64,000 nucleotides of DNA from Allostella vacuolata. GTDB lineage: Bacteria; Pseudomonadota; Alphaproteobacteria; ATCC43930; Allostellaceae. The stretch covers positions 3,931,388 to 3,995,387 of the forward strand of contig AP019702.1 in assembly GCA_006739055.1 (NCBI GenBank). The letters are read 5' to 3'. A program made the translations under genes and the position numbers. Below are positions 2,863 to 24,190 of the stretch, one piece after another; within the stretch, counting starts at the first letter, position 1; every line of letters begins with the position of its first letter. A model generated the notes under the pieces. That model was not told the DNA's origin. It made no database searches and worked only from the letters and a program-made list of their open reading frames with translations.

Positions 2863-4908
2863 TCAGATCTTGATGCAGGCGGCGAAGTGGCCGGGGCGGA
2901 TTTCGCGCACCTCGGGCACCGTCTGGCGGCATTCCGCCGACGCCATCGGGCAGCGGGTGTGGAAGACGCAGCCCGACGGCGGGGCGAGCGGCGACGGCAG
3001 CTCGCCGGTCAGCGCCCGCGGCTGGCGGGCCCGCTCCATCGCCGGGTCCGGCACCGGGGCCGCGTCGAGCAGGGCCTGGGTGTAGGGATGGAGCGGCGCC
3101 GCATAGAGCTCGTCGCGGTCGGCCATCTCCATCACCCGGCCGAGATACATGACCACGATGCGATGGGAGATGTGGCGGACCACCGCCAGGTCGTGGGCGA
3201 TGAAGAGGTAGGTCAGGCCGAGCCGCTCCTGCAGCTCGTCCAGCAGGTTGATGATCTGCCCCTGGATCGACACGTCGAGCGCGGAGACCGGCTCGTCGCA
3301 GACGATGAAGCTCGGCTCCATGGCCAGCGCGCGGGCGATGCCGACGCGCTGGCGCTGGCCGCCGGACAGCTGGTGGGGGTAGCGGTCGGCCATGTCGGCA
3401 TAGAGCCCGGACTGCACCAGCAGCTCCGCAACCCGCTCGCGCGCCTCGCGCTTCTTGATGCCGCGGCGGAAGATCAGCGGCTCGGCGATGATGTCGCCCA
3501 CCAGCATGCGCGGGTTGAGCGAGCTGTAGGGATCCTGGAAGATGACCTGGATCTTGGTGCGCAGCGCCTTCATGCGGGCCCGCGACGCCGTCACCAGGTC
3601 CTCGCCCTCGAAGCGGACCTCGCCGCCCGTGGCCTCCTCCAGGCGCAGGATGGTGCGGCCGATGGTGGTCTTGCCGCAGCCGGACTCCCCGACCAGCCCC
3701 AGCGTCCGCCCCTTCTCGATCGAAAACGAGACGTTCTCGACCGCGCGGACCGTGCCCTTGGTACCCATCAGGCCGCGCCCGCGCACTTCGAAATGCTTGG
3801 TCAGGCCGCGCACCACCAGCAGCGGCTCGGTCGTCGCCTGGCCGACCGTTCCGGCGACCACGGCCGCGGTCTGCTCCGCCAGGCCCTGGGCCAGTTCCTC
3901 GGCCCGGTGGCAGGCCGAGCGCTGGCCGTCCCCGGCATAATGGTAGGGCGGGTCGATGGCGCACTTCTCGATGCGGAACGGGCAGCGCGCCGCGAACCGG
4001 CAGCCGGACGGCGGCGCCAGCAGGTTGGGCGGCAGGCCCTCGATGGTCGCCAGCTTGTATTCGCGCGGCCGGTCGAGACGCGGCACCGAGCGCATCAGGC
4101 CGATCGTGTAGGGATGGCGCGGGGCGCCGAAGACCTGGTCGGCCGGCCCCTCCTCCACCACCCGGCCCGCATACATGACCGCGACCCGGTCGGCGTAGCG
4201 GGCGACGATGCCGAGATTGTGGGTGATGATGACCAGGGTGATGCCGAGGCGCCGCGACAGGTCCTTCATCAGCTCCAGGATCTGCGCCTGGATGGTGACG
4301 TCGAGGGCGGTGGTCGGCTCGTCGGCGATGATCAGCTTGGGATTGCAGGCCAGCCCGATCGCGATCATCACCCGCTGGCGCATGCCGCCCGAGAACTGGT
4401 GCGGGTACTGGCCGAGCCGGCGCTCCGCGTCGGGGATGCCGACCAGCCCCAGCAGCTCGATGGCGCGCGCGGTCGCCTGCTCGTCGCTCATGCCGAGATG
4501 GATCTTGAGCGGCTCCATGATCTGCAGCCCGATCGTCAAGGTCGGGTTCAGGCTGGTCATCGGTTCCTGGAAGATCATCGAGATGTCGCGGCCGCGCAGC
4601 TCGCGCATCTCGCTCTCGGGCAGGGTCAGGAGGTCCCGCCCCTCGAACATGATCCGCCCGCCGGCGACCCGGCCGGCCGGCTTGGCCAGCAGGCGCATGA
4701 CCGCCAGCGCCGAGACCGACTTGCCGCAGCCGGATTCCCCGACCAGCGCCATCGTCTCGCCGGGCTGGACCGACCAGTTGACCCCGTCGACCGCCTTGAC
4801 GACCCCGCGGCCGGTGGAGAACTCCACCCGCAGATCTTCCACGGAAATCAGCGGCGCGGTGGGCGCCGTCTGTGTGTGCGTCGGCTCCAGAAGAGTGGCG
4901 CTGGACAT
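2863..4908 (-). CDS. Fused double ATPase of peptide-type ABC importer (DppD-DppF fusion)
   Basis: 681-aa cytoplasmic protein with two complete ABC ATPase halves where many operons have two genes. The first half (about residues 20-330) has Walker A GESGCGKS, signature [14 protein letters not shown] and Walker [10 protein letters not shown]. The second half (about 360-680) has [23 protein letters not shown] and FIVCDEPVS. Each half ends in the oligopeptide-type C-terminal extension with a cysteine-bearing motif ([23 protein letters not shown]) typical of OppD/F-like subunits. It powers the permeases encoded downstream. It is the first gene of the minus-strand operon, whose promoter lies in the divergent gap 4909-5090. 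Such fusions are known in alphaproteobacteria. Confidence 0.94.
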
Positions 4909-12222: not shown

Positions 12223-12465
12223 GCGCCGCTCCCCCGGCCGGCAGCCGCGGCGTCTTGGAGCAGGGTTCGATCTGGGATAGGTTGCGCGAATGGGTCGCGG
12301 TCCGCACAACCAGCCGGAACCGGGCCGTGTCGGGGGCAGGCGCGATGCGCATCAGGAGCGGACTGGGAGCCATGGGGCGGCGGCTATCGGTTGCCTGCGC
12401 GAAGCGCTGACGGGCCACCCTTGCATCCGTCCTCGCCCAGCGACGCCGGCAGGAGATCGGCCCCG

Positions 12466-13185
12466 ATGCTGGAGCTGGTCGACGTGCGCAAGGCGTACAA
12501 GGTCGGCCCGGTCGAGATTCCGATCGTCAAGGGCGTCTCGCTGACCCTGAACGCGCGGGAGATCGTGTCCATCATGGGCGCGTCCGGCTCCGGCAAGACC
12601 ACGCTGATGAACCTGATCGGGCTGCTCGACCGGCCGACGTCCGGAGAGGTGCGCTACAACGGCGCCAACGCCGCCGACGCCGCGGCCGACGAGCTGGCCA
12701 GCATCCGCAACCGGCAGGTCGGCTTCGTCTTCCAGCAATTCTTCCTGCTGCCCCGCCTCACCGCGCGCGAGAATGTCGAGCTGCCGCTGACCTATCGCGG
12801 GGTCGGCGAGGCCGAACGGCGGCGGCGCGCCAGCATCGCCCTGGAACGGGTCGGCATGGCCAAGCGCGAGAAGCATCGGCCGATGGCGCTTTCGGGCGGC
12901 GAGCGCCAGCGCGTCGCCATCGCGCGGGCCATCGTCGGCGAGCCGAGCCTGATCCTGGCCGACGAGCCGACCGGCGCGCTCGACACCAAGACCGGGGCCG
13001 AGGTCATGGCGCTGTTCAAGGAACTCAACACCGAGGCCGGGACCGCGCTGGTCATCGTCACCCACGACCCGCAGGTCGCCCAGCAATGTCCGCGGCGGGT
13101 GGTCATGAGCGACGGCGTGCTCGTCCATGACAGCGGCACGTTCGATCACCACCGGGCGGGCGCCCCCGCGGAAACCCGCCCGTGA
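12466..13185 (+). CDS. MacB/LolD-type ABC transporter ATP-binding protein
   Basis: 239-aa cytoplasmic ATPase of the type VII (MacB/LolCDE/FtsE) branch. Walker A GASGSGKTTLMN, Q-loop FVFQQFFLLPRLTARENVE, signature [15 protein letters not shown], Walker B LILADEPTGALDT, H-loop IVTHDP. ATG at 12466 follows AGGAG (12451-12455). It overlaps the FtsX-like permease by GTGA and begins a four-gene operon (ATPase, permease, outer-membrane factor, PAS-adaptor). Unlike E. coli MacB, ATPase and membrane domain are separate proteins. Confidence 0.93.
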   Translation: MLELVDVRKAYKVGPVEIPIVKGVSLTLNAREIVSIMGASGSGKTTLMNLIGLLDRPTSGEVRYNGANAADAAADELASIRNRQVGFVFQQFFLLPRLTARENVELPLTYRGVGEAERRRRASIALERVGMAKREKHRPMALSGGERQRVAIARAIVGEPSLILADEPTGALDTKTGAEVMALFKELNTEAGTALVIVTHDPQVAQQCPRRVVMSDGVLVHDSGTFDHHRAGAPAETRP

Positions 13186-14357
13186 TCCGCCTGCTCGCCG
13201 AGGCGTTCCGCAACCTGGCCGGCAACAAGCAGCGCTCGCTGCTGGCCCTGCTCGGCATCGTCATCGGCACCGGCTCGGTGATCGCCATGGTGAACATCGG
13301 CGCCATCGTCCGCCAGGAGGCGCTGCGCCAGTTCGAGGCGATGGGCACCGACCTGCTCACCCTCTCCACCCGTTCCGACGGCGACAACGCCGGCTTCACC
13401 CCGGAGGAGATCTCGCTCCTGCCGGAGCGGGTTCCGGGCGTGCGGCTGGCGGCGGCCTATGGCCAGCGCAGCGAGCAGTTCGGGCCCACCGGGCAGGCCC
13501 CGGTCTACGGCGCGCTGGTCGGCGCGACGCCGGAATTCCTGGAGGCGGTCGAGGTCAGGCTCGGTGGCGGCCGCACCCCGTCCAGCTTCGACGGGCACGA
13601 GCTGTTCGCCGTGGTCGGCGCCGACCTGGCGGCGCTATGGATCAAGGCGGGCCGGCCGCTGGAGGTGGGCGACACGATCCCCGGCCCGGACGGCAGCATG
13701 CTGATGGCGATCGGGTTCCTGCAGCGGACCACGATCAATCCGCTGGTGCCGATCGACATGAACAAGGCCCTGGTCATCTCGGTGCCGGCGTTCCGCCGCG
13801 TCGCCCCCGACCAGGGCCTGACCGGCGCCATCCTGCGCGCCGCCCCCGGCAGCGACCCGCGCACCGTCGCCCGCGCGGTGGAACAGCACCTGCGGGCCGG
13901 CCAGCCGTCCCGGATCGTCCAGGCCCGCAGCGCCGAGCAGATCATCGAGCAGATGGCGAGCCAGATGCGGCTCTACACGCTGCTGCTGGGCGCGGTCGGC
14001 GGCATCTCGCTGATCGTCGGCGGGGTCGGCGTCATGAACGTGATGCTGGTGGCGGTGACCGAGCGCCGGCGCGAGATCGGCATCCGCATGGCGATCGGCG
14101 CCCGCCGGCGCTCCATCGTCAGCATGTTCCTGACCGAGGCGCTGTGCCTGTCGCTGGCCGGCGGCGCGATCGGGACGGCGATCGGCATCGGCACCGCCTA
14201 TGCGGCATCCGAGCTCGCCAACTGGGCCTTCCTCGTCTCGCCGGTGGCCATTCCGCTGGGGGCCGGGGTGTCCGCGGTGGTGGGCGTCGTCTTCGGCTAC
14301 CTTCCGGCCCGCCAGGCCTCGCGGGTCGACCCCATAGAGGCGCTGCGCTACGAATGA
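13182..14357 (+). CDS. MacB-like/FtsX-domain ABC transporter permease
   Basis: 391-aa inner-membrane protein. One N-terminal helix (LLALLGIVIGTGSVIAMVNI, about residues 20-40) is followed by a roughly 200-residue periplasmic MacB-core domain and then the FtsX domain with three helices. The stretch GGVGVMNVMLVAVTERRREI and IGARRRSIVSMFLTEAL are family hallmarks. It starts with GTG overlapping the ATPase stop and ends overlapping the TolC-like gene (ATGA). In MacAB-TolC-type pumps this part drives periplasmic substrate through the outer-membrane channel by mechanotransmission rather than carrying it across the inner membrane. Confidence 0.93.
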   Translation: MIRLLAEAFRNLAGNKQRSLLALLGIVIGTGSVIAMVNIGAIVRQEALRQFEAMGTDLLTLSTRSDGDNAGFTPEEISLLPERVPGVRLAAAYGQRSEQFGPTGQAPVYGALVGATPEFLEAVEVRLGGGRTPSSFDGHELFAVVGADLAALWIKAGRPLEVGDTIPGPDGSMLMAIGFLQRTTINPLVPIDMNKALVISVPAFRRVAPDQGLTGAILRAAPGSDPRTVARAVEQHLRAGQPSRIVQARSAEQIIEQMASQMRLYTLLLGAVGGISLIVGGVGVMNVMLVAVTERRREIGIRMAIGARRRSIVSMFLTEALCLSLAGGAIGTAIGIGTAYAASELANWAFLVSPVAIPLGAGVSAVVGVVFGYLPARQASRVDPIEALRYE

Positions 14358-15877
14358 CCGTCCCCCGTTCGACATTCCCAGGACCGAAAGGCAGGCTCGC
14401 CGCCCCGTTGCTGCTGGCCGCCCTGCTGGCACTGCCCGGCCAGGCCGCGCGGGCCCAGGTGCCGAGCCCGCCCGGCACCTATGGCGGCGCCTTCGCCGAG
14501 ACCAAGCGCATCTCGCTGTCCGAAGCCGTGGCGCTGATGCTGCGCGACAACCGCACGGTGCGTAGCGTCCTGCTGAGCCGCATCGTCGACGACTTCAACC
14601 TCCGCGTCGCCGAGGACCAGTTCAACCCGCAATATTCCCTGGCCGCGTCGGTCGGCCGCAACCAGCCGCAGCGCGGCCCCGGCGACCCGCGGGCGCGCGG
14701 CACGCTGGCCGGCGGCTGGACCCCCAGCGTCTCGCTCGCCCTGCCCTACGGGACCCAGATCCAGGCCACCGCCCGCGGCGGCTTCGCCCGGCGCGAGGGC
14801 GGCAGCACCAGCTTCGACCAGGCATTGGACCTGACCGTATTGCAGCCGCTGCTGCGCGGCGCCGGCAGCGACATCGCCACCGCCAGCCTGGAGATCTCGC
14901 GCATCAGCCGCCGGGTGCAGGCCCTCGGCACCGAGCGATCCGTGGTCAGCAGCATCGTGCTGGCGATCCAGTCCTACCGCAGCCTGATGCAGTCCATGGA
15001 GCAGGTGCGGATCGCCGAGGATTCGCTGCGCCGGGCCGTCGACCTGATGGGCGTGAACCGGCAGCTGGTCACAGCCGGCCGGCTGGCCGCGGTCGAGATC
15101 GTGCAGAGCGAGGCCAACGTCGCCCGCCAGGAGCTGTCGCTGCTGACGGCCCGCAACGCGCTGGATGCGGCCCGCCTCGACCTGCTGCAGATCCTGGCCC
15201 TCGATGTCGGCATCGGCCTGACCCCGACCGAGACGCTGACCGCGGAGCCCCTGAAGCTCGAGCTCGCGCGGGCGCTGGAGACCGCGCGCGCCAACCGCTC
15301 GGACTATCGCCAGGCGAACCTGCTGGTGGAGATCGCCCGGCTGAACCTGAACCTGGCGGAGGACGGGCTGCGCTGGGAGCTGAACGCGATCGCCAACCTG
15401 TCGACCACGGCGACCGACCGCACCTTCACCTCGACCCTGCGCCGCTTCGGCCGGACCGAACCCGGCCTCGGCTTCGGGCTGGAGCTGCGCATCCCCATCT
15501 CCAACCTGTCCGACCAGGCCCGTGCGGTCAGCGCGCGCATCGCCCTGCAGCAGCAGGAGCTGGCGCTGCGCGACCTCGACCAGCGGCTGGAGGTGCAGGT
15601 GCGCAACGGCCTGCGCCAGGTCGACATCAGCTGGCAGTCGCTGCGCCTGGCCGAGCAGGCGGTGCGCCTGTCGGAGCAGAAGCTCGACATCGAGCGCCAG
15701 CGCCTGCGGGCCGGCCGCAGCACCAACTTCCAGGTCGTGACCTTCGAGGACGACCTGGTGCGCACGCGGACCGAGCTGCTCTCGTCCAGGATCGGATACC
15801 TGAACGCCCTGACGTCGCTGGACGACGTGCTGGGCACCACGCTCCAGACCTGGGGCGTCCGGCTGGAGGCGATGTGA
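14354..15877 (+). CDS. TolC-family outer membrane efflux protein
   Basis: 507-aa outer-membrane factor. An N-terminal signal peptide ends near residue 37 (GQAARAQ), followed by the family opening ISLSEAVALMLRDNRTVRSV. Two long helical repeats are visible, including RQLVTAGRLAAVEIVQSEAN and RLRAGRSTNFQVVTFEDDLV, the typical repeated TolC helix pattern. ATGA overlap with the permease upstream; the following adaptor gene starts within its stop (TGATG). It should form the trimeric exit duct of the pump. Confidence 0.92.
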   Translation: MTVPRSTFPGPKGRLAAPLLLAALLALPGQAARAQVPSPPGTYGGAFAETKRISLSEAVALMLRDNRTVRSVLLSRIVDDFNLRVAEDQFNPQYSLAASVGRNQPQRGPGDPRARGTLAGGWTPSVSLALPYGTQIQATARGGFARREGGSTSFDQALDLTVLQPLLRGAGSDIATASLEISRISRRVQALGTERSVVSSIVLAIQSYRSLMQSMEQVRIAEDSLRRAVDLMGVNRQLVTAGRLAAVEIVQSEANVARQELSLLTARNALDAARLDLLQILALDVGIGLTPTETLTAEPLKLELARALETARANRSDYRQANLLVEIARLNLNLAEDGLRWELNAIANLSTTATDRTFTSTLRRFGRTEPGLGFGLELRIPISNLSDQARAVSARIALQQQELALRDLDQRLEVQVRNGLRQVDISWQSLRLAEQAVRLSEQKLDIERQRLRAGRSTNFQVVTFEDDLVRTRTELLSSRIGYLNALTSLDDVLGTTLQTWGVRLEAM

Positions 15878-17691
15878 TGGCCGAGAAGGAGGCCGCAGGC
15901 AGGGAGACCATGGGGCCGGCGCCCGAGCACGCCCTGCGCGTCGTCGAGAGCATGACCAGCGGGGTCGTCACGCTCGACCCCGAAGGCCGGGTCACCGCGA
16001 TCAACCAGCGCGCGGCGCAGATCATCGGCGCGGAGCCCGCCGCCCTGATGGGCGAGACGCTGATCACGATCCTGCTGGAAGACCCGAACAACGAGCACCT
16101 GACCGACGCGATCGTCGAGGCGAGCTACGATGCGACCGGCCGCTATCACCGCCAGGTCGAGTACCATTCGGGCGACCGGCGGCGGGTGCTGGACCTGCGC
16201 GCCAACCTGCTGCGCGGGACCGGCGGCACCACCGAGGGCGTCGTCCTGGTCATCGACGACGTGACCGAGACCGCCATCCTGCGCGCCTCCGAGCAGCGCC
16301 TGGCCGACGAGCTGCGCACCCGCAACGACACCCTGACCGAAGCCTATCGCGGCCTGGAGGAGAAGAGCCGGTCGCTCGACCAGGCCCAGCGCCGCATCCG
16401 CAGCCTGGGGCTGATCGCGCTCGCCATGACCGCACTGGTGGTGGGCGGCGCCGCCTTCTACGCCTGGACCTCCACCGCGCCGCCCGAGGCGCGCCGGCCG
16501 CCGCCGGTCAACCCCGGCGGCGCCCCGGCGGGGCTGGTCGCGACGCCGCGGCCGATCCGGCAGACCGCATCGGTCACCGGCACCATCGAGCCCGGCAAGG
16601 TGGTGGAGGTGACCGCCCCCTTCGCCGGCCCGGTCCAGGCGCGCGACTTCGTCTACGGCTCGCGGGTCGAGGCCGGGCAGGAGCTGCTGCGGCTGGATGG
16701 GGCCGAGATCGAGCGCGAGCGCCGCAAGTCGGTGGTGGCCGCCATGAACGCCCGCCAGAAGGTCGCCGAGCTGGTCGACTGGGAGCACGGCAACGAGGTG
16801 CAGCGGGCCCGCCGCCAGCTCGCCCAGGCGCGCCAGAACCTGGAACGCAGCCAGCAGCAGCTGCAGACCGCGGGCGAGCTGCTGAAGCGCGGCATCATCG
16901 CCCGGCAGGAATTCGAGAGCCTGCAGCAGCAGCAGCGCCAGCAGGAGCTGCAGGTCTTCTCTTCGGAGCAGGACCTGGCGGCGACGGTGCGCAAGGGGTC
17001 GGCCGACCAGATCACCATCGCCCGGCTCGACCTCGCCAGCATCGAGGAGAAGCTGGACGACCAGACCCGCCAACTGGCGGGCGCGCGCATCCTGGCGCCG
17101 GTGTCGGGCGTGGCGCTGCGCCCGCGCGCCCAGGCCGCCGCCGGCGCGGCCGGTGGCGAGGGCGCGGGCGGCCGCGACATCTCCGTCGGCACCCGCATCG
17201 AGCAGGGCCGGACCCTGCTGGAGATCGGCGACCTGTCGACCCTGTCGGTGCGCGGCCAGGTGGACGAGATCGACGTCAGCCGGGTGCGGCCGGGCCTGGC
17301 CGTGGTCGTGCAGGGGGCCGGCTTCGGCGGCCGGCCGCTCGCGGGCGTAGTGACCGCCGTCTCGTCCCAGGCGAACATCGAGCGCAGCGGCCGCAACCCG
17401 CGCGCCCGCTTCGACGTGCAGGTCACCATCCGCGACCTGCCGGCGGCGGTGCGCGAGCACCTGCGCATCGGCATGTCGGCGACGATGGAGATCGTGATCT
17501 ACGAGAACCGGGCCGCGATCGTGATCCCGCCCGACCTGATCCGGCGCACCGCCCAGGGCCCGCGCCTCAAGGTCCGCCAGGGCGGCCAGGGGGAGCCGCA
17601 GGAAGTCGTCCCGACGCTGGGCGTCAGTCTGCCCCAGGGCGTGGAGGTCACCGCCGGACTATCGGCCGGCGACGAGATCGTCAGGCCGTAG
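15877..17691 (+). CDS. PAS domain fused to HlyD/MacA-type periplasmic adaptor
   Basis: 604-aa protein with an unusual order of parts. Residues about 18-133 look like a cytoplasmic PAS domain (RVVESMTSGVVTLDPEGRVT, then AQIIGAEPAALMGE and a closing VVLVIDDVTE). Residues about 135-175 are a probable coiled coil, and 177-197 the only membrane helix. From about 215 to the end is a membrane fusion protein: a lipoyl-like half (VTAPFAGPVQARDFVYGSRV), a long coiled-coil hairpin about 260-370, the second half (ARILAPVSGV) and a barrel domain (VRGQVDEIDVSRVRPGLAVV). ATG at 15877 shares one base with the TolC stop; a GTG at 15874 is possible. Ordinary adaptors have only a short cytoplasmic N-terminus. 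The PAS assignment is from pattern, not from a profile search. Confidence 0.88.
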   Translation: MAEKEAAGRETMGPAPEHALRVVESMTSGVVTLDPEGRVTAINQRAAQIIGAEPAALMGETLITILLEDPNNEHLTDAIVEASYDATGRYHRQVEYHSGDRRRVLDLRANLLRGTGGTTEGVVLVIDDVTETAILRASEQRLADELRTRNDTLTEAYRGLEEKSRSLDQAQRRIRSLGLIALAMTALVVGGAAFYAWTSTAPPEARRPPPVNPGGAPAGLVATPRPIRQTASVTGTIEPGKVVEVTAPFAGPVQARDFVYGSRVEAGQELLRLDGAEIERERRKSVVAAMNARQKVAELVDWEHGNEVQRARRQLAQARQNLERSQQQLQTAGELLKRGIIARQEFESLQQQQRQQELQVFSSEQDLAATVRKGSADQITIARLDLASIEEKLDDQTRQLAGARILAPVSGVALRPRAQAAAGAAGGEGAGGRDISVGTRIEQGRTLLEIGDLSTLSVRGQVDEIDVSRVRPGLAVVVQGAGFGGRPLAGVVTAVSSQANIERSGRNPRARFDVQVTIRDLPAAVREHLRIGMSATMEIVIYENRAAIVIPPDLIRRTAQGPRLKVRQGGQGEPQEVVPTLGVSLPQGVEVTAGLSAGDEIVRP

Positions 17692-17772: not shown

Positions 17773-18228
17773 ATGCGTATCCTGGGATCACCGGCGGCAC
17801 TCGCCGGCGCGATGCTTCTGACCGCATTGGCCGCTCCCGCCAGCGGCGCCGAGCCGTATCCGGTCGAATTCAAGTTCGTGAACAATCAGAAGAACAACGA
17901 CATGAAGGGCGTCGTCCACAGGCTGGCCGGCTGGGTCCATGTGCCGCGGAACGACTCCCGAAGCATCCACAACAAGTTTGGATCGGGAAACGGCGAGGCT
18001 TTGTACTATTATGACGTCACCGTCACGGAGAATCGCGAAGGCGGCGAAATCTATTGCTCATATCAGATCGAAATAAAACAGCAGAGAACCTACCACAACG
18101 AAGAGAAGAGTTACTGCTCGATCGCGAACAGCTATGCGTCATCGACGCGGACCTGCCTCGGCGAGATACACCATGAAAGCGCTGCCGGGGCCTGCGAATT
18201 CACCTTCACTGCCGGCGATCCAGGCTGA
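17773..18228 (+). CDS. Secreted hypothetical protein, lower-GC gene
   Basis: 151 aa; not recognised. A clear Sec signal peptide (MRILGSPAALAGAMLLTALA, cleavage near residue 26 after ASGA) precedes a mature domain of about 125 residues rich in Asn, Lys, Tyr and Glu, with four cysteines in its second half (IYCSYQ, SYCSIANS, RTCLGE, GACEFT) that could form two disulfides. GC in 17960-18200 is visibly lower than in neighbouring genes, hinting at transfer or weak codon selection. It lies 81 bp after the exporter operon on the same strand and converges with the glycosyltransferase gene. Confidence 0.7.
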   Translation: MRILGSPAALAGAMLLTALAAPASGAEPYPVEFKFVNNQKNNDMKGVVHRLAGWVHVPRNDSRSIHNKFGSGNGEALYYYDVTVTENREGGEIYCSYQIEIKQQRTYHNEEKSYCSIANSYASSTRTCLGEIHHESAAGACEFTFTAGDPG

Positions 18229-21190: not shown

Positions 21191-22696
21191 ATGCCGATCA
21201 CCAGCACCGCATTCGCCCGCACCACCGTCCTGCTGCTCCTGGCGGGGGCGCTCGCCCTGTTCGGCATCGTCGCGGCCTCGCTCTGGCTGGTCGAGCGCAC
21301 CAACGCCTACACCGAAGAGGTGATCGCGGCGCAGCAGACGCGCGCCGCGACCAGCGGGCTCCTGACCTTGATGCAGTATGCCGAGACGGGGCAGCGCGGC
21401 TACCTCATCACCCAGGAAGCAGCCTACCTGGAGCCCTATGAACTGGCCCGGAGCCGCGTTCCGGAGCAGCTCGGGCGGTTGCGGGCCCTGTTCGCCGGGC
21501 ATCCGGCCGAGTTGGCCACACTCGACGAGATCGGCGGCAAGGTCGACGCGAAAATGGCCGAGCTGGCGGAAAGCATCGCCCTGGTGCAGGCCGGGCGGAC
21601 AGCCGAGGCGGTGGAGCTGGTCCGCACCGATCGCGGCAAGGCGGTGATGGATTCGCTGCGCGACGACCTGCGGGAGCTGATCCTGCGGATCGACGGCGGC
21701 ATCCGGGCGGCCGTCGACGGCACCCGCAGCACCGCGGATGCGCTCAGCTGGGCGGTGATCCTGGGCGCGCTGCTGATCGCCGCCCTGGCGGGCGGTTCGG
21801 TCTGGATCTCGTTCCGCTACACCCGCGACCTGGTGGCCGCGCGCCAGGAAGTGCAGGAGCTCAATTTCAGCCTGGAGGAACGGGTCGCCGATCGCACCGC
21901 CGACCTCGCGCGGGCCAATGACGAGATCCAGCGCTTCGCCTACATCGTCAGCCACGACTTGCGGGCGCCGCTGGTCAACGTGATGGGCTTCACCAGCGAG
22001 CTGGAGGTCTGTCTCGCCACCCTGCAGCGCTACGTCGAGACGACCGAAGCCGCCCCTTCGGTCGAGGCCGAGCAGGCGGCCGAGGCCCGGCTGGCGGCGT
22101 TCGAGGACCTGCCGGAGGCGCTGCGCTTCATCCGCTCCTCCACCACCCGGATGGACCGCCTCATCAACGCCATCCTCAAGCTGTCGCGCGAGGGGCGGCG
22201 GACGCTGACCGCGGAGCGCATCGACATGGGCGCGGTGCTGGAGACGGCGGCGGCCAGCGTCCAGCACCAGCTGCAGGCGGGCGACGGCACGATCACGGTC
22301 GAGAAGCCGGTGCCCAACATCCAGTCCGACCGGCTGGCGGTGGAACAGGTGTTCGGCAATCTGGTCGACAATGCGGTAAAGTACCTCGACCCGGCGCGGC
22401 CCGGGCGCATCGTCATCCGCGGCCGCGAGGAAGGCGGGCGGCTGGTGTACGAGGTGGAGGACAATGGCCGCGGCATCGCCCCGCAGGACCATGAACGCAT
22501 CTTCGAGCTGTTCCGCCGCTCCGGGCCCCAGGACAGGCCGGGCGAAGGCATCGGCCTGGCCCATGTCCGCACGCTCGCGCGGCGCCTCGGCGGCGATGTC
22601 ACCGTCGATTCGGCGCTTGGTCGCGGCACCATTTTCCGGGTAATCCTGCCGCGTCGCGCCGATGGCCCAGCCGCCCGGCCCGTCGCCGCCGCATAG
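21191..22696 (+). CDS. CHASE3-domain sensor histidine kinase
   Basis: 501-aa inner-membrane kinase. TM1 (VLLLLAGALALFGIVAASLW, about residues 13-33) is followed by a periplasmic CHASE3 domain (about 35-175, including YAETGQRGYLITQE) and TM2 (about 190-210). HisKA phosphoacceptor motif is IVSHDLRAPLVNVMG near residue 255. ATPase: N box FGNLVDNAVKYLD, G1 VEDNGRGIAP, G2 GEGIGLAHVRTLA. The kinase family resembles those that pair with Rcp1-like receivers. The receiver gene starts 10 bp downstream. Confidence 0.92.
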   Translation: MPITSTAFARTTVLLLLAGALALFGIVAASLWLVERTNAYTEEVIAAQQTRAATSGLLTLMQYAETGQRGYLITQEAAYLEPYELARSRVPEQLGRLRALFAGHPAELATLDEIGGKVDAKMAELAESIALVQAGRTAEAVELVRTDRGKAVMDSLRDDLRELILRIDGGIRAAVDGTRSTADALSWAVILGALLIAALAGGSVWISFRYTRDLVAARQEVQELNFSLEERVADRTADLARANDEIQRFAYIVSHDLRAPLVNVMGFTSELEVCLATLQRYVETTEAAPSVEAEQAAEARLAAFEDLPEALRFIRSSTTRMDRLINAILKLSREGRRTLTAERIDMGAVLETAAASVQHQLQAGDGTITVEKPVPNIQSDRLAVEQVFGNLVDNAVKYLDPARPGRIVIRGREEGGRLVYEVEDNGRGIAPQDHERIFELFRRSGPQDRPGEGIGLAHVRTLARRLGGDVTVDSALGRGTIFRVILPRRADGPAARPVAAA

Positions 22697-22706
22697 GGGA
22701 TACGAC

Positions 22707-23153
22707 ATGAACGCAGCCGCCCAGGCGGTGACCATCATCATGGTCGAGGACGACGAGGGCCACGCCCGGCTCATCGAGAAGAACATCCGGCGCGCCGGGG
22801 TGCACAACGAGATCGTCCCCTTCACCGACGGCACCAGCGCGCTCGAATACCTGTTCGGCAAGGACGGCAGCGGGCAGGTCAGCGCCGGCCGCGGCCTGCT
22901 GATCCTGCTCGACCTCAACCTGCCGGACATGACCGGCGTCGACATCCTGGCCAAGGTCAAGGCGAACCCGCATACGCGACGCTCGCCGGTGGTGGTCCTG
23001 ACCACGACCGACGACCAGCGCGAGATCCAGCGCTGCTACGACCTCGGCGCCAACGTCTACATCACCAAGCCGGTCAACTACGAGGCGTTCGCCAACGCGA
23101 TCCGGCAACTGGGCCTGTTCTTCGCCGTGATGCAGGTGCCGGAGATCGATTGA
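22707..23153 (+). CDS. Single-domain response regulator (Rcp1-like)
   Basis: 148-aa stand-alone receiver. Acidic pair in IIMVEDDEGHARLIEKNI, phospho-acceptor Asp in LILLDLNLPDMTGVD near residue 70, Thr in VVVLTTTDD and Lys in VYITKPVN. No output domain, so it passes phosphate or acts by protein contact. ATG at 22707 (MNAAAQAV) follows GGGGA; an upstream in-frame start at 22662 would overlap the kinase gene. It ends in a TTGA overlap with the next kinase. Confidence 0.93.
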   Translation: MNAAAQAVTIIMVEDDEGHARLIEKNIRRAGVHNEIVPFTDGTSALEYLFGKDGSGQVSAGRGLLILLDLNLPDMTGVDILAKVKANPHTRRSPVVVLTTTDDQREIQRCYDLGANVYITKPVNYEAFANAIRQLGLFFAVMQVPEID

Positions 23154-24190
23154 CCGTGCCCGCGCGCAGCCGCCTCCTCTACATCGACGACGACGCCGGA
23201 ATCGCGCGTCTCGTCCAGCGGACGCTGGAGGCGCACGGCTTCGCGGTCGAACATGCAGCGGACGGCGCCACCGGCGTCGCCCGCATCCGCGCCGGCGGCA
23301 TCGACGTCGTGGCGCTGGACCACTACATGCCGGGCGAGACCGGGCTCGACCTGCTGCCGCAGATCCAGGCGCTGCCCGATGCCCCGCCGGTCGTCTATGT
23401 CACCGGATCCGAGGACAGCCGGGTGGCCGTCGCCGCCCTGAAGGCCGGGGCGGTCGACTACGTCTGGAAGGACGTGGAAGGCACCTTCCGCGACCTGCTG
23501 GCCGAAGCCGTCCGGCAGGCGATCGAAACCAACCGCCTGCGCCGGGCCAAGGAGCGGGCGGAGGAGGAAACCCGGGCGGCACGGGACCGGGCCGAGATGC
23601 TGCTGCGCGAGGTCAACCACCGGGTCGCCAACAGCCTGGCGCTGGTCGCGGGCCTGGCCTACATGCAGGCGCACTCGATGACCGACCCGACCGCGAAGGC
23701 GGCGCTGGAGGAGATGCAGGCGCGCATCACCGCGATCGCCGGCATCCACCGCCGCCTCTACACCTCCGACGATGTCCGCTTCGTCGAGATCGATGCCTAC
23801 CTGAAGAGCCTGATCGAGGAGCTGCAGGCGGCGATGAAGGCAAGCGGGCGCGACCACACCATCCGCCTCAGCGCCGAGGCGATCCGCATCCCGACCGACA
23901 AGGCGGTCTCCGTCGGGGTGATCGTCACCGAACTGGTCACCAACGCCTACAAGTACGCCTATCCGCCCGGGGCCCACGGCGATGTCCGGGTCCGGATCGG
24001 TCACGACGACGGGCAGCAGGTATCGCTGGTGGTGGAGGATGACGGCATCGGCTGGGCCGGGACGGGCAAGCCGCGCGGCACCGGGCTCGGCTCGCGCATC
24101 GTCAAGGCGATGGCGGCCGACCTCAAGACCGCGGTGCGCTTCGACGAGGCCCATCGCGGAACCCGGGTGAGCCTGAGCTTCGCCCTCTGA
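23150..24190 (+). CDS. Receiver domain fused to HisKA_2/HWE-type histidine kinase
   Basis: 346-aa cytosolic hybrid. N-terminal receiver (about residues 5-125): LLYIDDDAGIARLVQ, phospho-acceptor in VVALDHYMPGETGLD, Lys in VDYVWKDVE. A linker coiled coil (about 125-150) leads to a HisKA_2-type phosphoacceptor (LREVNHRVANSLALVAGL). The ATPase domain has VTELVTNAYKYAYP, a DGIGW motif and GTGLGSRIVKAMA. The TTG start overlaps the stop of the preceding receiver gene; a GTG six bases later is an alternative. The three genes look like one phosphorelay cassette. Confidence 0.92.
   Translation: MTVPARSRLLYIDDDAGIARLVQRTLEAHGFAVEHAADGATGVARIRAGGIDVVALDHYMPGETGLDLLPQIQALPDAPPVVYVTGSEDSRVAVAALKAGAVDYVWKDVEGTFRDLLAEAVRQAIETNRLRRAKERAEEETRAARDRAEMLLREVNHRVANSLALVAGLAYMQAHSMTDPTAKAALEEMQARITAIAGIHRRLYTSDDVRFVEIDAYLKSLIEELQAAMKASGRDHTIRLSAEAIRIPTDKAVSVGVIVTELVTNAYKYAYPPGAHGDVRVRIGHDDGQQVSLVVEDDGIGWAGTGKPRGTGLGSRIVKAMAADLKTAVRFDEAHRGTRVSLSFAL

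Follow-up and report, generated by a model that had tools for sequence, protein, structure and literature searches.

A MacA-type adaptor with a cytoplasmic PAS domain in a four-gene pump operon of Allostella vacuolata, and a proposed role in gating the pump

For the most part, tripartite pumps are taken to be under transcriptional control. The described system closest to the locus reported here is MacAB-TolC, a type VII ABC tripartite pump; the two share a MacB-like NBD, a MacB_PCD/FtsX permease, a MacA-like adaptor with an N-terminal membrane helix and a TolC-type duct. In MacA that lacks the cytoplasmic region or the membrane helix, stimulation of the MacB ATPase is compromised and macrolide resistance is prevented; the helix is unresolved in the cryo-EM structure (review, PMC5985334). 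In the hemolysin type 1 secretion system the N-terminal cytoplasmic segment of the HlyD adaptor is reported to be necessary for ATPase activation and TolC recruitment: HlyD deltaN45, which has no N-terminal cytoplasmic helix, neither recruits TolC nor activates HlyB (PMC4446572). More generally, ABC- and MFS-linked adaptors have been described with sizable cytoplasmic domains that are structurally little-known (PMC8277102), and an earlier note on this DNA, which held that adaptors normally have a short or no cytoplasmic part, was thus only partly right. The window (the whole stretch analyzed, 64,000 nucleotides of Allostella vacuolata) encodes an adaptor with about 175 cytoplasmic residues that include a PAS domain. 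Unlike MacAB-TolC, the operon has its own TolC-like gene, and its sequences fall below the NCBIfam MacA and MacB cut-offs; unlike this adaptor, HlyD has a short cytoplasmic helix, HlyB as its partner and no sensor domain. No PAS- or GAF-bearing adaptor was found in open-access papers (most subscription journals lie outside this coverage), and within the open-access literature the earlier remark that no pump with such a layout has been described still holds.

The four pump genes, all on the forward strand, overlap head to tail in the order ATPase, permease, TolC-like protein, adaptor. The first (12463-13185, +) encodes a separate MacB-like ABC ATPase of 240 aa (Pfam ABC_tran, E = 3.2e-35), for which the best NCBIfam match is MacB (1.6e-74), the model being aligned over its NBD positions 3-232 of 648. 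The start of the MacB/FtsX-type permease (13182-14357, +; 391 aa; FtsX 1e-20, MacB_PCD 2.2e-20) overlaps the ATPase stop, and the TolC-type outer-membrane channel (14354-15877, +) overlaps the permease stop in turn; this channel is matched by OEP in two stretches (1.2e-29) and by NCBIfam type_I_sec_TolC below the cut-off of that model (3.4e-23). These coordinates and Pfam matches bear out the tight overlap of the adaptor gene with a MacB-like ATPase, an FtsX-type permease and a TolC-type gene that had been noticed before. The transporter is MacB-type (type VII) by its MacB_PCD and FtsX domains and its related NBD. Because the NCBIfam MacB model aligns its NBD portion to the ATPase and its permease portion to the gene that follows, we regard the MacB-like transporter as split in two genes, unlike MacB, in which NBD and permease form one polypeptide; family members elsewhere are likewise split. 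Wherever a relative was retrieved together with its flanks, ATPase, permease and TolC-like genes stand beside the adaptor, the one exception being TolC in genome G1118, where the contig starts too close. The order ATPase-permease-TolC-adaptor occurs in Stella and in several sensorless pumps, the order TolC-adaptor-ATPase-permease in the other PAS pumps and in a GAF pump described below, and some plasmid pumps differ from both. This operon conservation suggests that transporter, adaptor and duct form a putative tripartite pump.

The adaptor frame (15877-17691, +) begins with an ATG at 15877 that shares one base with the TolC-like stop, ends with the stop at 17691 and encodes 604 aa. From the N- to the C-terminus, a PAS domain is followed by a coiled-coil helix without gaps, a single membrane helix and then the MacA-type adaptor, an assignment on which Pfam, NCBIfam, AF2 and Foldseek agree and which matches the architecture read earlier from the sequence. 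The fusion is intact in 4/4 Stella-genus genomes searched (that of the window and three others, with 77, 71, and 63% identity to the window protein). In 385 alphaproteobacterial genomes, six had a match at ≤1e-20 and 6/6 of these covered both PAS and adaptor; order-level searches added three PAS-adaptors, every genome set searched being a sample, so that the true spread may differ. We aligned 11 PAS-adaptors, the four from Stella and seven from G418, G328, G106, G327, G1118, and G1085 (two). The six non-Stella genomes are Alphaproteobacteria of four other families; in their seven proteins the PAS domain was recognized by Pfam in four cases and by alignment in three, and the four compared from end to end share 29-34% identity with the window protein. 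The survey that the earlier note had proposed turned up PAS-adaptor fusions beside the same pump genes in further Alphaproteobacteria. Since four Stella genomes and seven further proteins all show this fusion, two genes joined by sequencing error or by chance were ruled out, and we concluded that the adaptor with a built-in PAS domain is a real gene architecture and neither a frameshift nor a chance fusion.

The PAS domain occupies residues 16-129 (15922-16263, +) and ends at D128-V129-T130. PAS_4 matches residues 24-132 (E = 1.6e-11) and Pfam PAS scores 6.6e-8, both above the gathering score; NCBIfam sensory_box (TIGR00229) matches at 3.4e-9, above its cut-off. The PAS part modeled alone with ten relatives reached a pLDDT of 85.2, and 50/50 of the listed Foldseek matches are PAS, LOV, PYP, FixL, or PAS-bearing sensor proteins. 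The absence of a PAS fold was rejected on the Pfam profiles and Foldseek matches, and the domain claimed earlier at residues 18-133 is present, its limits being corrected to about 16-129 with the DxT-type ending at 128-130. At the junction between PAS and coiled coil, 11/11 aligned PAS-adaptors keep a DxT-type motif in which D and E are invariant with T or S between them. Such a motif is common at this junction among PAS domains and is not obligatory. In 11/11 proteins the DxT-type ending is followed by an invariant AY at a spacing of 29 residues, and the residues invariant throughout are G29, V30, G37, N43, L105, V125, D128, E131, L135, R136, A156, and Y157. According to a paper on RsbP (PMC3183031), the DIT motif is believed to link PAS domains with a neighboring coiled coil. 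Across the 11 proteins the PAS part has no conserved His or Cys, so no known PAS chemistry is indicated; a heme- or LOV-type PAS was considered and set aside for want of a conserved His ligand or flavin-binding Cys in the set, and a use of such residues specific to Stella may exist. The PAS part resembles PAS-type sensor histidine kinases (AtoS, PnpS, WalK), with which it shares the succession of PAS, DxT-type junction and coiled coil and strong NCBIfam matches. Unlike in those kinases, the output here is a membrane helix and a periplasmic adaptor with no kinase, and a signal would leave the cytoplasm.

The signaling helix or coiled coil spans residues 130-174 (16264-16398, +). The linker at residues 131-172 has zero gaps in the alignment of the 11 PAS-adaptors and follows a heptad hydrophobic pattern: 58% of its strong hydrophobic residues fall at a/d positions against a shuffled mean of 37% (p = 0.0008, column shuffle, 11 proteins). 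It leads into the only hydrophobic segment of the protein at about residues 176-194 (16402-16458, +), in keeping with the single membrane helix claimed before. Because more K/R precede this segment than follow it (5 before, 2 after), the PAS domain is placed in the cytoplasm, with a predicted N-in topology by the positive-inside rule. The periplasmic MacA/HlyD-type adaptor body comprises residues 219-604 (16531-17688, +) and contains the HlyD-type lipoyl/barrel domains and alpha-hairpin (Pfam, AF2, Foldseek). It is matched by HlyD_3 (1e-10) and HlyD_D23 (3.3e-9), which together with the PAS_4 match settles the profile searches proposed earlier for this frame, and by NCBIfam RND_mfp below its cut-off (1.4e-21); the NCBIfam MacA equivalog NF008606 gave 32.8 bits against a cut-off of 342, and the best matches in a PDB sequence search are MacA. 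The whole protein modeled with AF2 (eight full-length relatives) showed the PAS order of strands and helices, a single helix at 130-190 and then the barrel, lipoyl and hairpin parts. The mean pLDDT was 74.6 with a low pTM of 0.41, so the arrangement of the domains is left undefined by the model, and its best Foldseek match is MacA of MacAB-TolC (E = 1.3e-19); structure prediction thus returned both the PAS fold and the MacA-like adaptor expected from the earlier note. By spacing, the RLS-motif places at the hairpin tip would be taken by T331-L335-A342, the tip lying at 340-342 in the AF2 model; the RLS motif is not universal among adaptors (PMC4446572).

Relatives of this adaptor also occur with another sensor domain or with none. 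In L054, from another class of Pseudomonadota, a GAF domain stands in the PAS place (Pfam, E = 3.2e-12). Sensorless relatives are found in other Pseudomonadota and on plasmids of Enterobacter, Pantoea, Deefgea, Azospirillum, Methylosinus, and Rhizobium. The plasmid-borne adaptors match the adaptor profile at E-values of 9.5e-99 to 2e-126, whereas the best matches reach only ∼1e-53 in 149 Acidobacteriota and ∼1e-56 in 149 Planctomycetota. The sensorless four-gene pumps on plasmids of Pantoea, Enterobacter, Deefgea, and Azospirillum belong to the same family by adaptor profile and operon, but their adaptor begins at the membrane helix without PAS or GAF. In a tree of the adaptor body the PAS proteins form two groups, one of Stella with G418 and one of the remaining six; the former has the main sensorless group (11 rows) as its sister, and the GAF adaptor is the first branch of the ingroup. 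A single clade of sensor-bearing adaptors was not rejected (p-AU 0.073). We read this as an ancestral sensor-adaptor in which sensors were later lost and swapped; two gains would also be possible. The sensor would then appear to be an exchangeable module, with PAS in some lineages, GAF in one and none in others. Frames of 530-722 aa among general MacA relatives (Alphaproteobacteria, Acidobacteriota, Planctomycetota) were considered as further fusions and set aside as C-terminal inserts or frames extended upstream of the start; no sensor domain was seen in the sequences read among them. As separate observations, the L054 gene with GAF lies at 7511-9418 of L061 downstream of two transposase-like ORFs of identical translation (610-1497 and 3104-3991), and G1085 has two PAS-adaptor pumps that have diverged from each other and lie on separate contigs, L153 (C77) and L154 (C66).

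We propose that the PAS domain is a cytoplasmic switch on a MacA-type adaptor that gates the pump through the coiled coil and the membrane helix, and give this reading a probability of roughly 55%. The PAS fold, junction, helix, adaptor and their co-conservation come from sequence and modeling, and from them we infer the gating. The PAS dimers would be altered by a protein partner or by a signal, be it a small molecule, redox or energy; this change would pass along the coiled coil and the membrane helix to the adaptor's membrane-proximal part, and that part would set the strength of ATPase stimulation and duct engagement. Cargo would be picked up from the periplasm, as for MacB. Since MacA needs its cytoplasmic region and membrane helix for ATPase stimulation, the PAS domain is attached to the adaptor part that reaches the motor. 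Of the earlier suggestion of direct gating by a cytoplasmic signal, then, the anatomy (DxT-type junction, fixed-length coiled coil, recurrence of PAS or GAF) and the MacA precedent speak in favor, which supports it in part; on the other side, many bacteria have pumps of this family with no sensor, and sensing is thus not required for the pump as such. If the proposal is true, a swappable cytoplasmic sensor on the adaptor would provide direct signaling from cytoplasm to periplasm via a pump part, and its recurrence in distantly related bacteria suggests a pump switchable by intracellular conditions. The fusion also offers a test case for the role that the cytoplasmic and membrane portions of MacA play in stimulating MacB, and its gapless signaling helix is amenable to the insertion and heptad tests used on sensor kinases.

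The same anatomy could serve assembly. PAS domains often dimerize via helical extensions, adaptors must oligomerize, and no class of ligand-binding residue is conserved in this PAS domain, all of which would suit a module that dimerizes or oligomerizes the adaptor without any signal. We regard this as unlikely: sensorless relatives exist, the DxT-type motif is kept in 11/11 PAS-adaptors, and in L054 the unrelated GAF fold replaces PAS, which fits sensor exchange better than a specific assembly part. Signaling might also run in reverse, the adaptor then relaying pump load or periplasmic cargo to the PAS domain and from there to partners in the cytoplasm. A CHASE3 histidine kinase, a response regulator and a response regulator-HisKA_2 kinase lie in a row at 21191-24190 (Pfam), about 3.5 kb from the pump, and two-component genes are also beside the pump in another Stella genome (L194); moreover, it has been suggested that MacA signals to the NBDs when substrate is present (PMC5985334). 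However, the PAS domain has no fused kinase or other output domain, and two-component genes were not found beside the other PAS pumps (in a plain reading of their flanks), which makes the reverse direction very unlikely. Still more doubtful is a role like that of the HlyD N-terminal part, in which the cytoplasmic domain would bring in a substrate or factor from the cytoplasm. In type 1 systems, recognition and assembly involve the N-terminal cytoplasmic parts of the adaptors (PMC4446572, PMC8277102), but the transporter here is MacB-type and described as taking periplasmic cargo (PMC5985334), and the candidate cargo near PAS pumps bears signal peptides. That a sequencing error joined two genes has a negligible probability, given that three other Stella genomes have full-length orthologues, that seven additional PAS-adaptors exist and that nothing was found in its favor.

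Under the preferred reading, a PAS switch that gates the pump, the cargo may perhaps be a Cys-containing small secreted protein such as the one encoded just downstream of the adaptor (17773-18228, +), a signal-peptide protein of 151 aa with four Cys in its mature part and no Pfam match. Another Stella genome has a similar 151-aa, 6-Cys protein in the same place (L067 6016-6471; phmmer E about 3e-5 in a small set); no counterpart was seen in the other two Stella genomes. Similar signal-peptide Cys neighbors occur in G418 (three), G328, G1085, and G1118 and beside the sensorless pumps of Azospirillum and Rhizobium. MacAB-TolC exports STII, a Sec- and Dsb-dependent peptide; the enterotoxin is likewise a small, Sec-exported, disulfide-bonded protein taken from the periplasm, but this is an analogy only, and the neighbors here are unrelated families without known function. 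These small secreted proteins are perhaps candidate cargo of the pump, and "efflux", the label used in the earlier note, may be the wrong word since the neighboring genes point to secreted proteins. If they are cargo, new families of secreted proteins would be named together with their exporter. It is a tentative possibility that these pumps represent a class of tripartite systems dedicated to small signal-peptide Cys proteins, with PAS or GAF acting on the motor through the adaptor membrane helix and export controlled post-translationally from the cytoplasm.

The linkage between one such family, A5, and the pump was examined with a profile whose source sequences were four copies from G1085 and one from G1118, so that only copies beyond these are independent. 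Among 23 whole genomes, 12/12 G1085 matches with E ≤1.4e-5 lie on contig C66, at 2.7-10.8 and 20.3-20.7 kb, on both sides of the pump at 11.0-16.1 kb, and no strong match was found elsewhere in that genome. The matches include fragments and thus amount to about ten gene copies, some perhaps decayed. The sole match in G1118 adjoins the pump, and 14 control relatives gave no match below 0.06. The G1085 copies (L216 2701-10840, L217 265-699) carry the motif CxxxWxxSxAAxxC, and the members tested had no Pfam match. Pump linkage is not absolute for the L147 cargo family, one relative of which (in Azospirillum sp. B510) has no such pump within 6 kb. On plasmid pAB510c of the same strain, three tandem 252-aa paralogues without signal peptide lie beside a sensorless pump (L144 511-2945); their middle part is variable and their C-terminus nearly constant.
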